A stretch of 64,000 bases of DNA. It comes from Nitrospirales bacterium (GTDB taxonomy: Bacteria; Nitrospirota; Nitrospiria; Nitrospirales; UBA8639). The translations under genes were made by a program, and so were the position numbers. Location: assembly GCA_031315865.1 (NCBI GenBank), contig JALDRJ010000002.1:248001-312000 (forward strand), in the 5' to 3' direction. The notes beneath the pieces are model-generated. The model was not told the origin of the DNA and made no database searches. It saw only the letters and a program-made list of their open reading frames with translations. Positions 24,741-30,866 of the stretch are shown here, one piece after another (position 1 is the stretch's first letter; every line of letters begins with the position of its first letter).

Positions 24741-26351
24741 TTAGACAGGCAACCCCGAATATCGGCATTTTTCGGAAGACAACGTATTGGGTCGAGTGAT
24801 CGACCGACTGGACTCTTGACTCACTTTTCGATTTCGAGCTTTGCTGTGATGCATTTTGTGTCTGGCGTGATACGGCACTATACCGCTCAAGACATCCGGA
24901 AGAATATCGCAGGGAACATCTTCCAAGAACTTGGTCGAGGGTTTGGCATCAGGGCCGGAACGTCCTCCGACATACACGTCCACAGCTTCGATAATCTCCC
25001 CCTTTATTTTCACTTTTTTGCCAATCAGCCCGACGTCCGCCAGCAGATGATTTCCACAGCTAGCCGGACACCCGGACCAATGCATCGTAATCGGCTTGAG
25101 GTCTGTTCCGAATTTGGTTCCGAGTTTGTCTTCGAGTATCTTGGCGGTTTCAACAGCTCGGCTTTTCGTTTCGATAACGGCTAGATTGCAGTAATCGCTT
25201 CCCACGCAGCTCACCAGTCCTTTTTGAATCGGCGATGGATTATACACAAATTTTCGTAGAATCGGCTCTTCGGTCAAATCCCCGATGCGTGCATCCTTCA
25301 CGTTAGGAATCAGGATCGCCTGACTATGCGCAACCCGCAACTCTCCTGTGCCGTACGTTTCCGCGAGTTCGCCCATCTTGTTCATATCATCGGCCATCAT
25401 ACGGCCCACAGGGATTTTTAAGCCGACATAATTCAGCCCGGAAGATTTCTGTCGATAGATCCCCATATGATCATTCACATGTTTCTTTCGCGCATCGAAC
25501 CCGGCCCGCGCATATGGTCGCCCCAAACGATATTCTACTTCCGTTCGAAATCGTTCTTCTCCCCATTCATCGATAAGAAACGCCAATCGCGCCGTATTGC
25601 GTGAATCTCGAAACCCATAATCCCGATAGACACTCAGGATAGCGCAGGTCACCTTGACGACCTCTGATGAAGTCACAAACATGTCCAATGGTGACGCAAT
25701 ACGATATCCTCCAGACCCTAGCTTTCCACCAACCCACACATTAAATCCAGGCTCTTCACCATTTGGATTCCGCGTTGCCGGCACCAAGGCCAGGTCCTGG
25801 GATTCCAGATGAAGACAATTCTCGAGACACCCTGTCATCGCCATATTAAATTTTCTGGGAAGATTGGAATAGGCTCGATTGCCCACGATTTCTTCGTTCA
25901 AAGCATGAACAAGTGGAATGGTATCGATGAGTTCTGACGGTGCCAGACCCGCCACCGGGCATGCCATGATATTCCTCACGTTGTCCATACCGGTCTGCAC
26001 GCTACACAGGCCAACCTCATGCATTCGCTTAAACACCTCTGGAACATGCTCAATCGTCAAATGTCGCAATTGAATCTGCTGACGCGTCGTGAGATCGATC
26101 ACACCGTTTCCGAACGTCCGTGCAATTTCGGCCAATGTTCTCACCTGTGCCGAAGTGGCCCTCCCACCAGGGATTCGGACTCTCATCATAAAAAATCCGG
26201 GAGTGGGATTCCTGAGGAATAGGCCATACCACTTCAGCCGTTGAATATTCTCTTCGGCGATCGCCTCCCACCCTTCTCTTGCGAATCGCTCAATATCATC
26301 CAAAATATCCAAACCATCTTTTTCTGTCTTGAGTACTTCAATTTTATTCAT
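24741..26351 (-). CDS. nirA: Ferredoxin-nitrite reductase (siroheme/4Fe-4S)
   Basis: This cytosolic enzyme reduces nitrite to ammonium with six electrons from ferredoxin. The 536-residue protein has two ferredoxin-like halves (first ending near TTRQQIQLRH) and two NIR_SIR domains. The cluster/siroheme cysteines are C382 and C388 (CVGSDYC) and C428 and C432 (GCPASC), all four present. The HLTIEHVPEVF segment and the siroheme-contact arginines look intact. The ATG at 26351 is preferred because GAGGA lies nine bases upstream; an ATG nine bases earlier overlaps that site. It follows nirC by 37 bases under the sigma-54 promoter at ~27398. Assimilatory nitrite reduction is the likely role, rather than sulfite reduction. 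Confidence 0.92.
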   Translation of the reverse strand: MNKIEVLKTEKDGLDILDDIERFAREGWEAIAEENIQRLKWYGLFLRNPTPGFFMMRVRIPGGRATSAQVRTLAEIARTFGNGVIDLTTRQQIQLRHLTIEHVPEVFKRMHEVGLCSVQTGMDNVRNIMACPVAGLAPSELIDTIPLVHALNEEIVGNRAYSNLPRKFNMAMTGCLENCLHLESQDLALVPATRNPNGEEPGFNVWVGGKLGSGGYRIASPLDMFVTSSEVVKVTCAILSVYRDYGFRDSRNTARLAFLIDEWGEERFRTEVEYRLGRPYARAGFDARKKHVNDHMGIYRQKSSGLNYVGLKIPVGRMMADDMNKMGELAETYGTGELRVAHSQAILIPNVKDARIGDLTEEPILRKFVYNPSPIQKGLVSCVGSDYCNLAVIETKSRAVETAKILEDKLGTKFGTDLKPITMHWSGCPASCGNHLLADVGLIGKKVKIKGEIIEAVDVYVGGRSGPDAKPSTKFLEDVPCDILPDVLSGIVPYHARHKMHHSKARNRKVSQESSRSITRPNTLSSEKCRYSGLPV

Positions 26352-26388
26352 GTCGATCATTCCTCATTCGTCACGTTGGATGATTTCC

Positions 26389-27234
26389 TTACCCTCGAAT
26401 ACCGTCAGACTCTACTCCCTGCATGATTGGGGGAGCTAACGACCTCTCACGAGAAGACGCCTCAACTCGAACTGGACTTGTGAGCCAATACGAGGCCCCA
26501 ACGAATACCGCTCCACCCACAAGATTTCCAGCCCCGACAAACACCTGATTCCAAAGAAATCCGAACATCGAGATATCCTGACCATGAGGGAGCAACAAGG
26601 CCATCCCCAGCAGCGATTGATTGGCGATGCTGTGTTCAAAGCCGCTGCCAACGAAAGCAAACAAGCACCAGAAAATCAGCATAATTCTGGCTGCTTCGCT
26701 CTTGGTACGTAGAGCCATCCATACCGCTAAACAGACAAGCCAATTGCACAAAACTCCTCGAACGAACAAATCCCATCCCGATAGCGACATTTTCATAGAC
26801 GCGACAGTCATCAGGAGATCAATTTTCGCGCCATTGCCCAAGACGCCGGATTGAACGACTAGCCAGGCAATGCCTAACGAACCGATCGCATTACCGATAT
26901 ATGACCAGAAAAATATCCATCCGACATTCGTCCAGGAAATAGCTTTCGATAGTCCACCGACTGCACAGATCATATTATTGCCCGTGAACAATTCGGAGCC
27001 TGCAAACAGGACGAGCGTCAACGCCACACCAAAAGACGCGCCCATGATGAGCTTCACGCCCGCAGCTCCTTCTGCGGCAAAAGGCGACCCGACGCTGAAG
27101 ATCAATGTAATCCCAAACCCCAGGTAGACTCCTGCCAGGATCGAAAGCACAACATATCCAAGAGGGGAACGATCTAGATATTCAACCTTCTGTCTGGCGA
27201 GTTGCATGATTCTTTCGATATCAGACTTGAACAT
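26389..27234 (-). CDS. nirC: Formate/nitrite channel, NirC type
   Basis: This 281-residue FNT-family membrane channel has six transmembrane helices: SPLGYVVLSILAGVYLGFGI, GVALTLVLFAGSELFTGNNM and the rest in order. The Omega-loop signature LFTGNNM and the second FNT signature region near GSGFEHSIANQ are readable; the central-pore histidine is in the latter. It imports nitrite for NirA, whose gene follows by 37 bases. AAAAGGAGAG precedes the ATG at 27234. The leader carries a 9-U terminator hairpin and the promoter is of sigma-54 type, so expression is probably limited to nitrogen-related signals. Confidence 0.92.
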   Translation of the reverse strand: MFKSDIERIMQLARQKVEYLDRSPLGYVVLSILAGVYLGFGITLIFSVGSPFAAEGAAGVKLIMGASFGVALTLVLFAGSELFTGNNMICAVGGLSKAISWTNVGWIFFWSYIGNAIGSLGIAWLVVQSGVLGNGAKIDLLMTVASMKMSLSGWDLFVRGVLCNWLVCLAVWMALRTKSEAARIMLIFWCLFAFVGSGFEHSIANQSLLGMALLLPHGQDISMFGFLWNQVFVGAGNLVGGAVFVGASYWLTSPVRVEASSRERSLAPPIMQGVESDGIRG

Positions 27235-27266
27235 GGCGCTCTCCTTTTGGACGCTCTAGAAAAGTT

Positions 27267-27327
27267 AAAAAAAAACGCCATCTACCAGAAGAGGAGAACC
27301 AAACCGGTTTCCCTTCAGTAGATGGCG
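27267..27327 (-). terminator. Intrinsic terminator inside the nirC leader (candidate attenuator)
   Basis: Reading the minus strand, a perfect 10-base-pair outer stem (CGCCATCTAC / GTAGATGGCG) encloses 32 bases that themselves pair further (GAAG/CTTC and GGTTTCC/GGAGAACC with bulges). The stem is followed by nine uridines. It lies between the sigma-54 promoter (~27398) and nirC (27234), so it would stop transcription before the gene unless relieved. No gene ends here, so it is not the end of an upstream transcript. Confidence 0.85.
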
Positions 27328-27395
27328 CCTTTGCCATCCCTCCATCCACTTTCAACGTGGAATGTATCCGTATTTAATTTTCAAGGAAAAGTATA

Positions 27396-27413
27396 GAGCA
27401 ATTTTCTTGCCAC
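27396..27413 (-). promoter_or_regulatory. Sigma-54 promoter for nirC-nirA
   Basis: On the minus strand the sequence TGGCAAGAAAATTGCTC has GG (27411-27410) and GC (27399-27398) separated by exactly ten bases, with TGGCA and TTGC blocks close to the sigma-54 consensus. Transcription would start near 27386, leaving a ~150-base leader before nirC. Confidence 0.85.
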
Positions 27414-27485
27414 CAAGAACAGAGCTGAAATAAGGGCAAATTCATTAATTTTATCTCGTTCATCTAGGCTTCCGACAAACAAGCA

Positions 27486-27519
27486 GACAATTTTGTTCGT
27501 GCATTCCGACAATATTGTC
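27486..27519. promoter_or_regulatory. Twin ACAA-N2-TTGT palindromes, candidate activator site
   Basis: Two palindromes share the form ACAA-N2-TTGT: ACAATTTTGT at 27487-27496 and ACAATATTGT at 27509-27518 (the latter within GACAATATTGTC). Their centres are 22 bases apart, two helical turns, and they lie ~75-110 bases upstream of the sigma-54 -24 element. That is the usual place and spacing for enhancer binding; the adjacent activator at 27581 is the obvious candidate ligand. Confidence 0.6.
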
Positions 27520-27580
27520 ATAGCGATCTCGGGAGAGTGTGAGGAAAAAAGACGTGAATGTGGAAATACCGATGTGGTGC

Positions 27581-28759
27581 CTAGGAGGTAATTCGAGAAG
27601 CTCGTATTCCATACTTCTTCATCTTGTAGCCCACTTGCCTAGGCGTCAACCCTAAGACTCTTGCAGCTTTGGTCTTCACCCAACCAACGTCGGTTAAGAC
27701 TTGAACTAACCGGTCACGCTCGAGATTTTGGACATCATGGGGCAATGATTTCTCCGATTGCAGACCTGGTCTCTTGCTATGAACCGTGGTCACTTCTCGA
27801 ATATGGTCAATATAATCCTTCAAAGCATCAGGGACAGTCGAAAGCGTCACCGTTGCCGAACTGGCTAAGACGACCAATCGCTCGATACAGTTTTGCAATT
27901 CTCGTATGTTCCCCGGCCAATGATATCGCGCAAGCACCGACATAATCTCAGGATCAATCTGAATACGTCGACGATTCTCTCGACTGAAACGGGCGAGAAA
28001 ACACTCCACCAACGATGAAATATCCTCTTTGCGTTCACGTAGTGGTGGCAAGACTAACGGAACGACGTTCAGACGATAATAGAGATCTTCTCGAAAGTCT
28101 CCTGTTGTGACCATTGCCTCTAAATCTCGGTGGGTGGCAGCCACGATTCGGACATCAGTACGCAAATTGGTCGTCCCGCCGACTCGTTCGTATTCCCGTT
28201 CTTGTATGACCCGAAGCAGTTTCACCTGTGTCTCAAGCGGGATATCTCCGACTTCATCAAGAAAGAGTGTGCCTCCTGAAGCCTGCTCAAGCTTTCCCTT
28301 TCTCGTCTGGATTGCCCCGGTAAAGGCCCCGCGTTCATACCCAAACAAGGTTGATTCAATGAGCGACTCCGGTACGGCTGCACAATGAACAGGAATAAAA
28401 GGACCCTCATTTCTCGTGCTCGACAGATGAATCCCTTTCGCCACTAATTCTTTTCCAGTCCCGCTTTCCCCGCGAATCAGAACCGTGGCCTCGCTATTGG
28501 CCACCCGCTCAATCGCATCATACACAGCCCGCATGGCCGAACTGTTTCCAATAAGTGTGTTCGAGAAAGAACTGAGCCGATGATGCGGCTTTTGCTCATC
28601 ATCATTTTGAGTATTTTGGACACCACCTTTCTGCACGTCGTTCAGCAATCGTAACGCATCATGTATGCGGCGCTCAGGACTGGCCTCCTTTGTTAAGACA
28701 GACACCAGTTTTTTCACCAAGTCGTCAAGATTTGGCTGAACAATCGGCTTAATGCTCAT
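27581..28759 (-). CDS. Sigma-54-dependent transcriptional activator (no receiver domain)
   Basis: This 392-residue enhancer-binding protein has an N-terminal ~75-residue segment with no receiver or GAF domain. The AAA+ domain follows with Walker A GESGTGKE, the sigma-54-contacting GAFTGA loop, Walker B (GGTLFLDEVGD) and the arginine-finger region (REDLYYRLNVVPL). The C-terminal Fis-type helix-turn-helix is KTKAARVLGLTPRQVGYKMKKYGI, close to NifA/FhlA tails. With no input domain it may be constitutively competent or controlled by its own expression, which fits the terminator in its leader. The gene is oriented toward nirC-nirA and is 346 bases from nirC. Confidence 0.93.
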   Translation of the reverse strand: MSIKPIVQPNLDDLVKKLVSVLTKEASPERRIHDALRLLNDVQKGGVQNTQNDDEQKPHHRLSSFSNTLIGNSSAMRAVYDAIERVANSEATVLIRGESGTGKELVAKGIHLSSTRNEGPFIPVHCAAVPESLIESTLFGYERGAFTGAIQTRKGKLEQASGGTLFLDEVGDIPLETQVKLLRVIQEREYERVGGTTNLRTDVRIVAATHRDLEAMVTTGDFREDLYYRLNVVPLVLPPLRERKEDISSLVECFLARFSRENRRRIQIDPEIMSVLARYHWPGNIRELQNCIERLVVLASSATVTLSTVPDALKDYIDHIREVTTVHSKRPGLQSEKSLPHDVQNLERDRLVQVLTDVGWVKTKAARVLGLTPRQVGYKMKKYGIRASRITS

Positions 28760-28882: not shown

Positions 28883-28921
28883 AAAAAAAAACGCCCACTC
28901 CTGTGCTTAGGAGATGGACGT
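28883..28921 (-). terminator. Intrinsic terminator in the leader of the sigma-54 activator
   Basis: Reading the minus strand, ACGTCCATCTCCT pairs with AGGAGTGGGCGT (one bulge, one G-U pair) around a six-base loop and is followed by nine uridines. It lies ~125 bases before the activator start and downstream of a sigma-70-like promoter (28982-29010). No gene ends on this side, so it is a candidate attenuator rather than the stop of an upstream gene. Confidence 0.75.
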
Positions 28922-28981
28922 TCATTGTCCTTTCGCCCCTTATGTCTCACGAAGCAACAGCCTTGTTCCCTCGCTATTCAT

Positions 28982-29010
28982 TAGGTATCAGACAACAATG
29001 AGCTTGTCAA
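28982..29010 (-). promoter_or_regulatory. Sigma-70-like promoter for the activator
   Basis: On the minus strand a perfect TTGACA (-35, 29010-29005) is followed after 17 bases by TACCTA (-10, 28987-28982). Transcription would start near 28975 and read the terminator at 28883-28921 before the activator gene. The element GACAA-N8-TTGTC (28991-29008) overlaps the -35 and spacer. Confidence 0.55.
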
Positions 29011-29218: not shown

Positions 29219-29279
29219 GCCATATTAAAAGAACACGAACGATTCTTGTCAGCAGAATTATAAACCCGAATAATTGACC

Positions 29280-30866
29280 ATGTTACGAATGACCACCATT
29301 AGCCTGTACCTTGTGATGAGTTCCGTAATGGTCACACATGCCCCCCACACCACGGCTACCCTCCTGGCTAGTGAATCGAGTAATGTTGGCTCTGACCAAC
29401 AACACGGCTCAACAGACAGGGAACGGCACTCCCCCGGTAACTCCACTAAATGTGATTGGACGAGTCCCTGGCCTGCCTATTCGAGCAATCCGTTTTCTAT
29501 ACCTACGAGTTTACCTCCCCTGTCAGGGCGAGGAGGCATCATCGTCAACTTCTTTACGGACGATTGTCTGCTCGATTATGCGATCTCTCAAAAGGATGGC
29601 AAATATGGATCGGGCGTTGGCCGTATCGCGGTGTACGACCATGATGGTCATGAGGTATGGATAGAAGAAAATATTGACTTACGAATCAACGGCAATGCTG
29701 AACATCATGGCCTGCCAGGTTGGAGCGGTCCCGGCCTCTCGTCCGGCGATGTGGATGGCGATGGCAAGATAGAACTCGTGCATTTAGATACTGACAATCA
29801 CGTCGTCATCCGCGACGGTCAAACGGGAGCCGTGAAAAAGACCTTTTCTATCGGCTATCCGGCAGGGTCAAATCCTTTGGAACGCATGAAGCAATTCTTG
29901 TCGTCTTACGGATTAACGAAAGAACGTCACTGGGGCATGGTGCAGGTTGTCAATCTTCGGGGGCAAGGATTACAGGACGCGATCCTTCAGTCCGACCACC
30001 TCCCCTTCAACCAACTCGCCGCCATTCGCTTGGATACTGGTGCCCTCCTCTGGACGTACGAGGGCTACGTCGGTCAAAAGCATGGAGGATTTCGAACGGC
30101 CGACATCGACCTTGACGGACGTGATGAAGTCATAGGCGTTACCATTCTGGATGATGACGGGAAAAAGTTAAATACCTGGGAATACCCGGTCACGATCGAT
30201 ACGATAGATGCCCCTCACATTGATGCGGTACATGCCTACGATATAGACCCTAGCATTCCCGGACTTGAAGTCCTTCTGCTCGAAGAACATTGGGGAAAGA
30301 GCAAGCCGGCCAATCATACGACGCTCGTCAATGCGGACAAGGTCATCTGGCGAGCAAACCGGGAATACATAGAGCCTCAAAACTCTGCGATTGGTGAATT
30401 CGATCTTTCTGCTCCTGGCCTGGAAATCTGGTCGCGAAGCCGTTTTGACAAGGCACAATTGCCCTGGATCTATAACGCTCAAGGAGAGGTTATCGCACAG
30501 TACGCACTAAACGATATGAAACCAGAAGATTGGTCAGATAGTGGAATAGAGTTTATTAATGCCATCCACTGGGACGGAAACGGCTTACAGCATATCGCAG
30601 CGAAAGAGAGGCATACTGAAGGCAAGGTGGCGATCTTGAATCCAATGACTGGAGAATTCCTCAAAGTATGGGATGAGACAGCTGCTCATCTCTTGGTGGC
30701 GGACGTGGCTGGCGATGCCCGTGAAGAAATCATCGTCTTTAACAACAAAACCAAGGAAATACGAATTTATTGGAATGAAAAACCTGGATCGGGAGACACT
30801 CAACGCCTATGGTTACACAACCATTACCAGAGAGCGAAAGATAACTATAACTACTATAGTCCATAA
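29280..30866 (+). CDS. Exported FG-GAP beta-propeller protein, PL11-like features
   Basis: This 528-residue protein has a signal peptide (LYLVMSSVMVTHA) and an FG-GAP/VCBS beta-propeller. Calcium-loop motifs are readable (GDVDGDGKIEL near residue 155, ADIDLDGRDEV near 280). The C-terminal RLWLHNHYQRAKDNYNYYS is reminiscent of the end of rhamnogalacturonan-lyase (PL11) propellers, but the catalytic site was not verified. A sigma-54 promoter lies directly upstream. The ribosome site is weak; an ATG at 29289 is an alternative start. The function is unknown; a secreted protein under nitrogen-type control is unusual. Confidence 0.8.
   Translation: MLRMTTISLYLVMSSVMVTHAPHTTATLLASESSNVGSDQQHGSTDRERHSPGNSTKCDWTSPWPAYSSNPFSIPTSLPPLSGRGGIIVNFFTDDCLLDYAISQKDGKYGSGVGRIAVYDHDGHEVWIEENIDLRINGNAEHHGLPGWSGPGLSSGDVDGDGKIELVHLDTDNHVVIRDGQTGAVKKTFSIGYPAGSNPLERMKQFLSSYGLTKERHWGMVQVVNLRGQGLQDAILQSDHLPFNQLAAIRLDTGALLWTYEGYVGQKHGGFRTADIDLDGRDEVIGVTILDDDGKKLNTWEYPVTIDTIDAPHIDAVHAYDIDPSIPGLEVLLLEEHWGKSKPANHTTLVNADKVIWRANREYIEPQNSAIGEFDLSAPGLEIWSRSRFDKAQLPWIYNAQGEVIAQYALNDMKPEDWSDSGIEFINAIHWDGNGLQHIAAKERHTEGKVAILNPMTGEFLKVWDETAAHLLVADVAGDAREEIIVFNNKTKEIRIYWNEKPGSGDTQRLWLHNHYQRAKDNYNYYSP

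Follow-up and report, generated by a model that had tools for sequence, protein, structure and literature searches.

Sigma-54-dependent transcription combined with ANTAR antitermination in the leader is already known from nasF with NasR, and from NasT in Azotobacter and Paracoccus. The published consensus for ANTAR target RNAs is AGCAANGRRGCUY with an A1/G4 signature, as given in the portion of PMC3369931 drawn on here, and EutV reads G4 alone in a base-specific manner, a single hexaloop being the minimal site (PMC8934654). The main text of Ramesh et al. (2012) predicts ANTAR target RNAs at nitrogen genes of diverse bacteria, including those for P-II, ammonium transporters, and nitrite reductase. 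GAF-ANTAR proteins were called uncharacterised in 2012, according to the same portion of PMC3369931.

We analysed a window of 64,000 nucleotides from the genome of a Nitrospirales bacterium, probably of the family UBA8639 (lineage IV), whose closest named relatives are Nitrospirales MAGs, and all coordinates refer to this window unless a contig is named. The nirC gene (26389..27234, minus strand) encodes a member of the formate/nitrite transporter family (Pfam PF01226, E 2.4e-65) and carries a ribosome-binding site, AAAAGGAGAG, at 27239..27248 (minus strand). It is followed by nirA (24741..26360, minus strand), which encodes a ferredoxin-type nitrite reductase with the Pfam domains NIR_SIR and NIR_SIR_ferr; its best NCBIfam model, PRK09566, scored 562.9 bits, below the cut-off of 594. 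Read along the minus strand, the activator gene (28759-27581) comes first, followed by the twin palindromes, the sigma-54 site, the leader, the terminator, nirC, and nirA.

The initial annotation had placed a sigma-54 promoter, a pair of palindromes, and a hairpin with a U9 tail upstream of nirC, and all three were confirmed. The sigma-54 -24/-12 site, TGGCAAGAAAATTGCT, lies at 27412-27397 (minus strand) with exact GG-N10-GC spacing and scored above all 300 leader shuffles; transcription is expected to start near 27386. The palindromes, ACAAAATTGT (27487-27496, ACAAWWTTGT) and ACAATATTGT (27509-27518), to which no strand is assigned, lie upstream of it. Each has the form ACAA-N2-TTGT, their starts are 22 bp apart, and the pair is unique in the genome (3.78 Mb, two contigs), where a reversed-pattern control gave zero matches. 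The twin palindromes are likely the binding site of the adjoining activator; inspection by eye for the NifA UAS (TGT-N10-ACA) revealed none. The genome also encodes rpoN. All that is expected of a sigma-54 promoter is present: the GG-N10-GC spacing, RpoN, and an activator whose likely sites lie further upstream.

The leader terminator (27267..27329, minus strand; -32.6 kcal/mol) comprises a hairpin at 27329-27276 followed by nine T residues at 27275-27267. The whole nirC leader reached a folding energy of -54.5 kcal/mol, better than that of any shuffle (z = -3.7). A consensus terminator scan did not list the 27329-27267 hairpin because its loop is long and interrupted, and an Rfam scan of the leader found no known RNA family. 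Immediately upstream, the antiterminator hairpin P2, GGAUGGC-AAAGGC-GCCAUCU (27320..27339, minus strand; -10.0 kcal/mol), presents the hexaloop AAAGGC at 27332-27327, with the A at position 1 and the G at position 4 that mark ANTAR targets. Because the 3' arm of P2 doubles as the 5' arm of the terminator, the two structures are mutually exclusive. A further hairpin, P1, UCCAC-GUUGAAA-GUGGA (27345..27361, minus strand; z = -1.4), lies 24 nt before the P2 loop; in its seven-base loop, G4 is retained and A1 is replaced by G. Averaged over 20 leaders, the extra stability of P1 came to a modest z of -1.9, for which reason P1 was dropped as strong independent evidence, and its stem was disrupted in one congener. 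With its relaxed loop, the P1 hairpin before nirC does not conform to the canonical motif, and no other part of the case is as weak.

The activator gene (27581..28759, minus strand) matches Pfam PF00158, PF25601, and PF02954 and encodes AAA+ and Fis-type HTH domains, with no sensor domain recognised by Pfam in residues 1-68. Its best NCBIfam match was TIGR01817 nifA at 444 bits against a cut-off of 529, spanning residues 41-389 only, so that it falls short of a NifA equivalog, and neither Pfam nor NCBIfam detected a GAF domain. We therefore call the protein NifA-like rather than NifA. A second attenuator precedes this gene on the same strand, behind a sigma-70-like promoter recognised by eye, TTGACA-17-TACCTA (28980..29010), that resembles the promoter preceding tandem leaders in other genera. 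The attenuator consists of P1 with the A1/G4 loop AAGGCU (28950..28973), P2, GGAC-AAUGAAC-GUCC (28916..28930), and a terminator (28883..28923; covariance model E 3.8e-6). Divergent from the activator gene, the reading frame at 29274-30866 (plus strand) encodes a rhamnogalacturonan-lyase family 11 C-terminal domain and FG-GAP repeats, and a protein of this type is unexpected in an autotrophic nitrite oxidiser.

In the same genome, the covariance model R1 detected the nirC leader (8e-7), the activator-gene leader at 28934-28883 (about 4e-6), the leader of nadE-glnD (E 2e-4), which directly follows the ANTAR gene, and, as a weak match, the porin-amtB leader (E 0.011). By eye, the amtB element contains the hairpins GAGAC-AACGUU-GUCUC and GGGAC-GAUGGA-GUCC, and P1 of both the activator and amtB leaders is an A1/G4 hexaloop. 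The nadE start codon stands right after the U-tract, and the terminator may therefore also hide the nadE start region. This nadE-glnD attenuator, downstream of the ANTAR gene, occupies L147:3471-3522 (minus strand; G000:C2:582470-582521). In relatives, the element also stands before nrtA/cynA-like transporters, as a tandem pair in two cases. Some weak R1 matches may be ordinary terminators, since nirC leaders made up most of the training set and the model includes a terminator. A match at C2:3555251 (E 0.16) was treated as chance, though a short stem and a terminator could be seen there by eye.

The initial annotation had proposed comparing the leader across relatives for conserved pairing, and the comparison found such pairing. 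We took nirC leaders from relatives and from a scan of named genomes, and searched them mechanically for an A1/G4 hexaloop hairpin overlapping a terminator. The overlap was found in nearly all Nitrospirales nirC leaders, including that of N. defluvii (L068), with the exception of genus g4, and the element is conserved over three families; the same search found it absent from the Nitrospinota nirC leaders. Under strict scoring, the P2/terminator configuration occurred in 50 of 87 nirC leaders, a set that includes Nitrospinota and other outgroups, versus 2 of 3480 shuffles. The P2 loops read AANGRC. In the tally of 75 elements, A1, A2, and G4 stand at 100% because the search pattern demands them; the information there comes from N3, the R5 split, and C6 (74/75) alone. 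Among 35 distinct elements, the P2 stem was 89% paired and the terminator lower stem 96.7% paired, with covariations of 0.50 (shuffled, 0.20) and 0.60 (shuffled, 0.25), respectively; none of 500 shuffles attained either value. The common arm covaries with both partners, as in AUGGC/GCCAU/AUGGC, GUGGC/GCCAC/GUGGC, and CGGAC/GUCCG/CGGAC, with fewer independent events than the cell counts because the changes fall mostly between clades or element types. Palindromic, insertion-like repeats were seen between the terminator and nirC in several relatives (leaders L007/L036, between attenuator and nirC; L079, L080, L084, and L021); they apparently spare the attenuator where one exists, and L021 has none.

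The only ANTAR protein of the genome is a GAF-GAF-ANTAR protein of 418 aa, whose ANTAR domain aligns to those of EutV, Rv1626, and NasR. Five of the eight RNA-contact residues of EutV are identical (Arg142, Lys143, Lys149, Glu160, and Met172), two are conservatively replaced (Lys147 by Arg, Tyr164 by Phe), and Arg168 is replaced by Gln. In 137 Nitrospirales genomes, R1 matched in 89 of 99 with an ANTAR gene versus 0 of 38 without one (p = 6e-25, uncorrected for relatedness); the genomes are related, and such p-values therefore overstate independence, the co-occurrence resting on few independent losses. Among 60 relatives, the figures were 50/51 and 0/9. Even among relatives lacking any nirC match, R1 was found in 17 of 18 ANTAR-positive genomes versus 0 of 9 ANTAR-negative ones, indicating that the co-occurrence is not carried by nirC. 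In genus g12, all eight ANTAR-positive genomes matched R1 and the rest had no match.

Ten ANTAR-positive genomes (G020, G030, G036, G040, G043, G077, G099, G105, G116, and G129) lacked an R1 match at E 0.001, and their targets may have diverged; G020, G036, G040, and G043 do match at E 0.01 in the scan of 60 relatives. Only one genome of the 137, G140, has two ANTAR matches (C60 and C83) of equal score, probably from a duplicated contig. In G038, G054 (N. defluvii), and G058 (Nitrospiraceae), nirC and the ANTAR gene are 11-16 kb apart within a single nitrogen cluster, aroB-ANTAR-nadE-amtB-glnB-glnD-glnA-nirC-cynS-nirA, with local differences. Nitrogen superclusters of the N. defluvii type were noted in L152 and L151, with two attenuators between glnA and nirC.

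The motifs, the covariation, the other copies of the element, and the co-occurrence are direct observations on sequence. They make it very probable that the nirC leader works as an antitermination switch for an ANTAR protein, in combination with a sigma-54 activator. Sigma-54 RNA polymerase would start near 27386, aided by the NifA-like activator on the twin palindromes, and the nascent leader would fold either as P1 and P2 or as the terminator. By default, the terminator would form and the RNA would end at about 27267, whereas the active GAF-GAF-ANTAR protein would hold P2 and permit read-through to nirC-nirA. We predict that this protein also acts at the attenuators before the activator gene, nadE-glnD, and porin-amtB; with both the activator mRNA and the activator's target under ANTAR control, the circuit would be a coherent feed-forward loop. 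Because the activator has no recognised sensor domain and its mRNA is itself attenuated, control may enter mainly via the ANTAR protein. Protein-RNA binding, the direction of control, and nitrogen state as the signal are what we infer from these sequences. The initial annotation's idea of two-step control, by a sigma-54 activator and then read-through, is well supported, the sigma-54 site, nearly always with the palindromes, being present wherever the activator adjoins an attenuated nirC, and it is further backed by the antiterminator/terminator covariation and a matching trans-acting factor. That reading had missed the ANTAR mechanism, the adjoining activator gene, and the second attenuator. 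Nitrite or ammonium state, which it had proposed as relieving the terminator, is a candidate signal, the predicted sensor being the GAF-GAF protein.

One other explanation is that the hairpin is a plain end-of-gene terminator of the activator gene with no regulatory read-through. The initial annotation had held that no gene ends there; in fact, a same-strand gene, that of the activator, does end at 27581, about 250 nt upstream of the hairpin, as this explanation would have it. However, the sigma-54 promoter and the palindromes intervene between the end of the activator gene and the hairpin, and the hairpin is for this reason still taken as the nirC leader terminator, a role in which the initial annotation was right. 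Furthermore, the second element (28883-28934) has no same-strand gene ending upstream, the frame at 29274-30866 being divergent, three families retain the hexaloop hairpin that overlaps the terminator arm, with covariation, and ANTAR-negative genomes contain no R1 matches. We consider a plain terminator very unlikely.

It is equally improbable that a metabolite-binding riboswitch or another RNA-binding protein acts directly on the terminator. The antiterminator-versus-terminator anatomy is indeed common to such systems; however, the leader has no Rfam match, the conserved part is a small hexaloop hairpin with no aptamer, and the element co-occurs with the ANTAR gene. Leader-peptide attenuation coupled to translation has the least to recommend it and is scarcely credible, although a short frame, ATG GAG GGA TGG ... 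GTT TTT TTT TAA, can be seen by eye to be open across the hairpin. This frame lacks a good ribosome-binding site, its passage through the AAAGGC loop is lost in the congener L006, and L004 and L005 have no ATG. Among these explanations, the ANTAR switch is the one we retain.

The distribution of the sigma-54 site and the palindromes follows that of the activator. Where the activator adjoins an attenuated nirC (g1, g5, and g7; also f2), there is a sigma-54 site, nearly always the palindromes, and a single nirC attenuator; the 22 bp palindrome spacing recurs in the other three g1 genomes, and a second attenuator stands before the activator gene in most members of g1 and g7. The activator, the sigma-54 site, and the palindromes are all lacking in g6, g8, g9, and most of f3, and nearly all activator-free genera carry two attenuators in tandem before nirC, the exception being genus g19, which has one canonical P1-P2 element. 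The MerR-type gene found upstream in g1 is also the upstream neighbour in g9, where no activator gene lies between the two attenuators; in the f3 genome G056, the activator still follows glnA, where relatives have the tandem. In genus g4, the activator is present and is itself preceded by an attenuator, whereas nirC has none, and a clear sigma-54 site is kept in some members only. The simplest reading of these arrangements is that loss of the activator would have fused its leader with the nirC leader, which suggests a way for control at the promoter to disappear and for control at the RNA level to survive as tandem switches.

Since the same switch recurs before other nitrogen genes across the order, one protein probably runs nitrogen assimilation in Nitrospirales. 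On balance, we lean towards a broader model in which the one-component GAF-GAF-ANTAR protein would be the master regulator of nitrogen assimilation in this order, acting at two tiers on one operon (the activator mRNA and the activator's target), with repeated activator loss fusing the two leaders into tandem attenuators that this one protein reads. Nitrospirales rank as major nitrite oxidisers, both in natural habitats and in wastewater. The analysis names a candidate trans-acting factor, the GAF-GAF-ANTAR gene, and a defined RNA element, both open to testing in cultured strains such as N. defluvii, together with a small predicted regulon (nirC-nirA, the activator, nadE-glnD, and amtB, with nrtA/cynA-like transport in relatives).

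Our literature searches found no paper linking ANTAR regulation with Nitrospira, no GAF-ANTAR protein tied to nitrogen assimilation since 2012, and no regulator of Nitrospirales nitrogen assimilation. In the parts of the Nitrospirales genome papers that deal with these genes, nirC, nirA, and cynS are treated and ANTAR or leader control is not. The targets predicted in the main text of Ramesh et al. (2012) share the RNA motif and the nitrogen genes with those described here; that text does not mention Nitrospira, and it does not describe sigma-54 activator coupling or tandem remnants. Sigma-54 with ANTAR control is known elsewhere, and on the strength of these searches we count the nirC-nirA switch, as read from its sequence, as a new form of ANTAR antitermination.

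The Nitrospirales loops, AANGRC, match the published ANTAR consensus, which supports their reading as ANTAR targets. As in the dual-hexaloop EutV leaders of the Enterococcus eut genes, in the parts of PMC3369931 and PMC8934654 that describe them, A1/G4 hexaloops are combined with a P2 that overlaps the terminator 5' arm, and the loop-to-loop distance is 24 nt in both eutP and the nirC leader. EutV, however, is a REC-ANTAR protein that senses ethanolamine, and the P1 loop is relaxed in the nirC leader. The resemblance to nasF of Klebsiella lies in an operon for nitrate/nitrite assimilation that combines general nitrogen control through sigma-54 with ANTAR antitermination in the leader, to judge from the relevant parts of PMC5424462 and PMC3369931, and that to nasA of Azotobacter, Paracoccus, and Bradyrhizobium in ANTAR antitermination of a nitrogen-assimilation leader atop sigma-54/Ntr control. 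The sole ANTAR gene encodes neither a NIT-ANTAR protein nor a REC-like ANTAR protein with NasS, and identity with NasR or NasT was thereby ruled out. NasR senses nitrate through a NIT domain and NasT is half of a two-protein complex with NasS, whereas the ANTAR protein described here bears two GAF domains of its own; and where nasF relies on NtrC, nirC-nirA has a neighbouring NifA-like protein whose own leader is attenuated.
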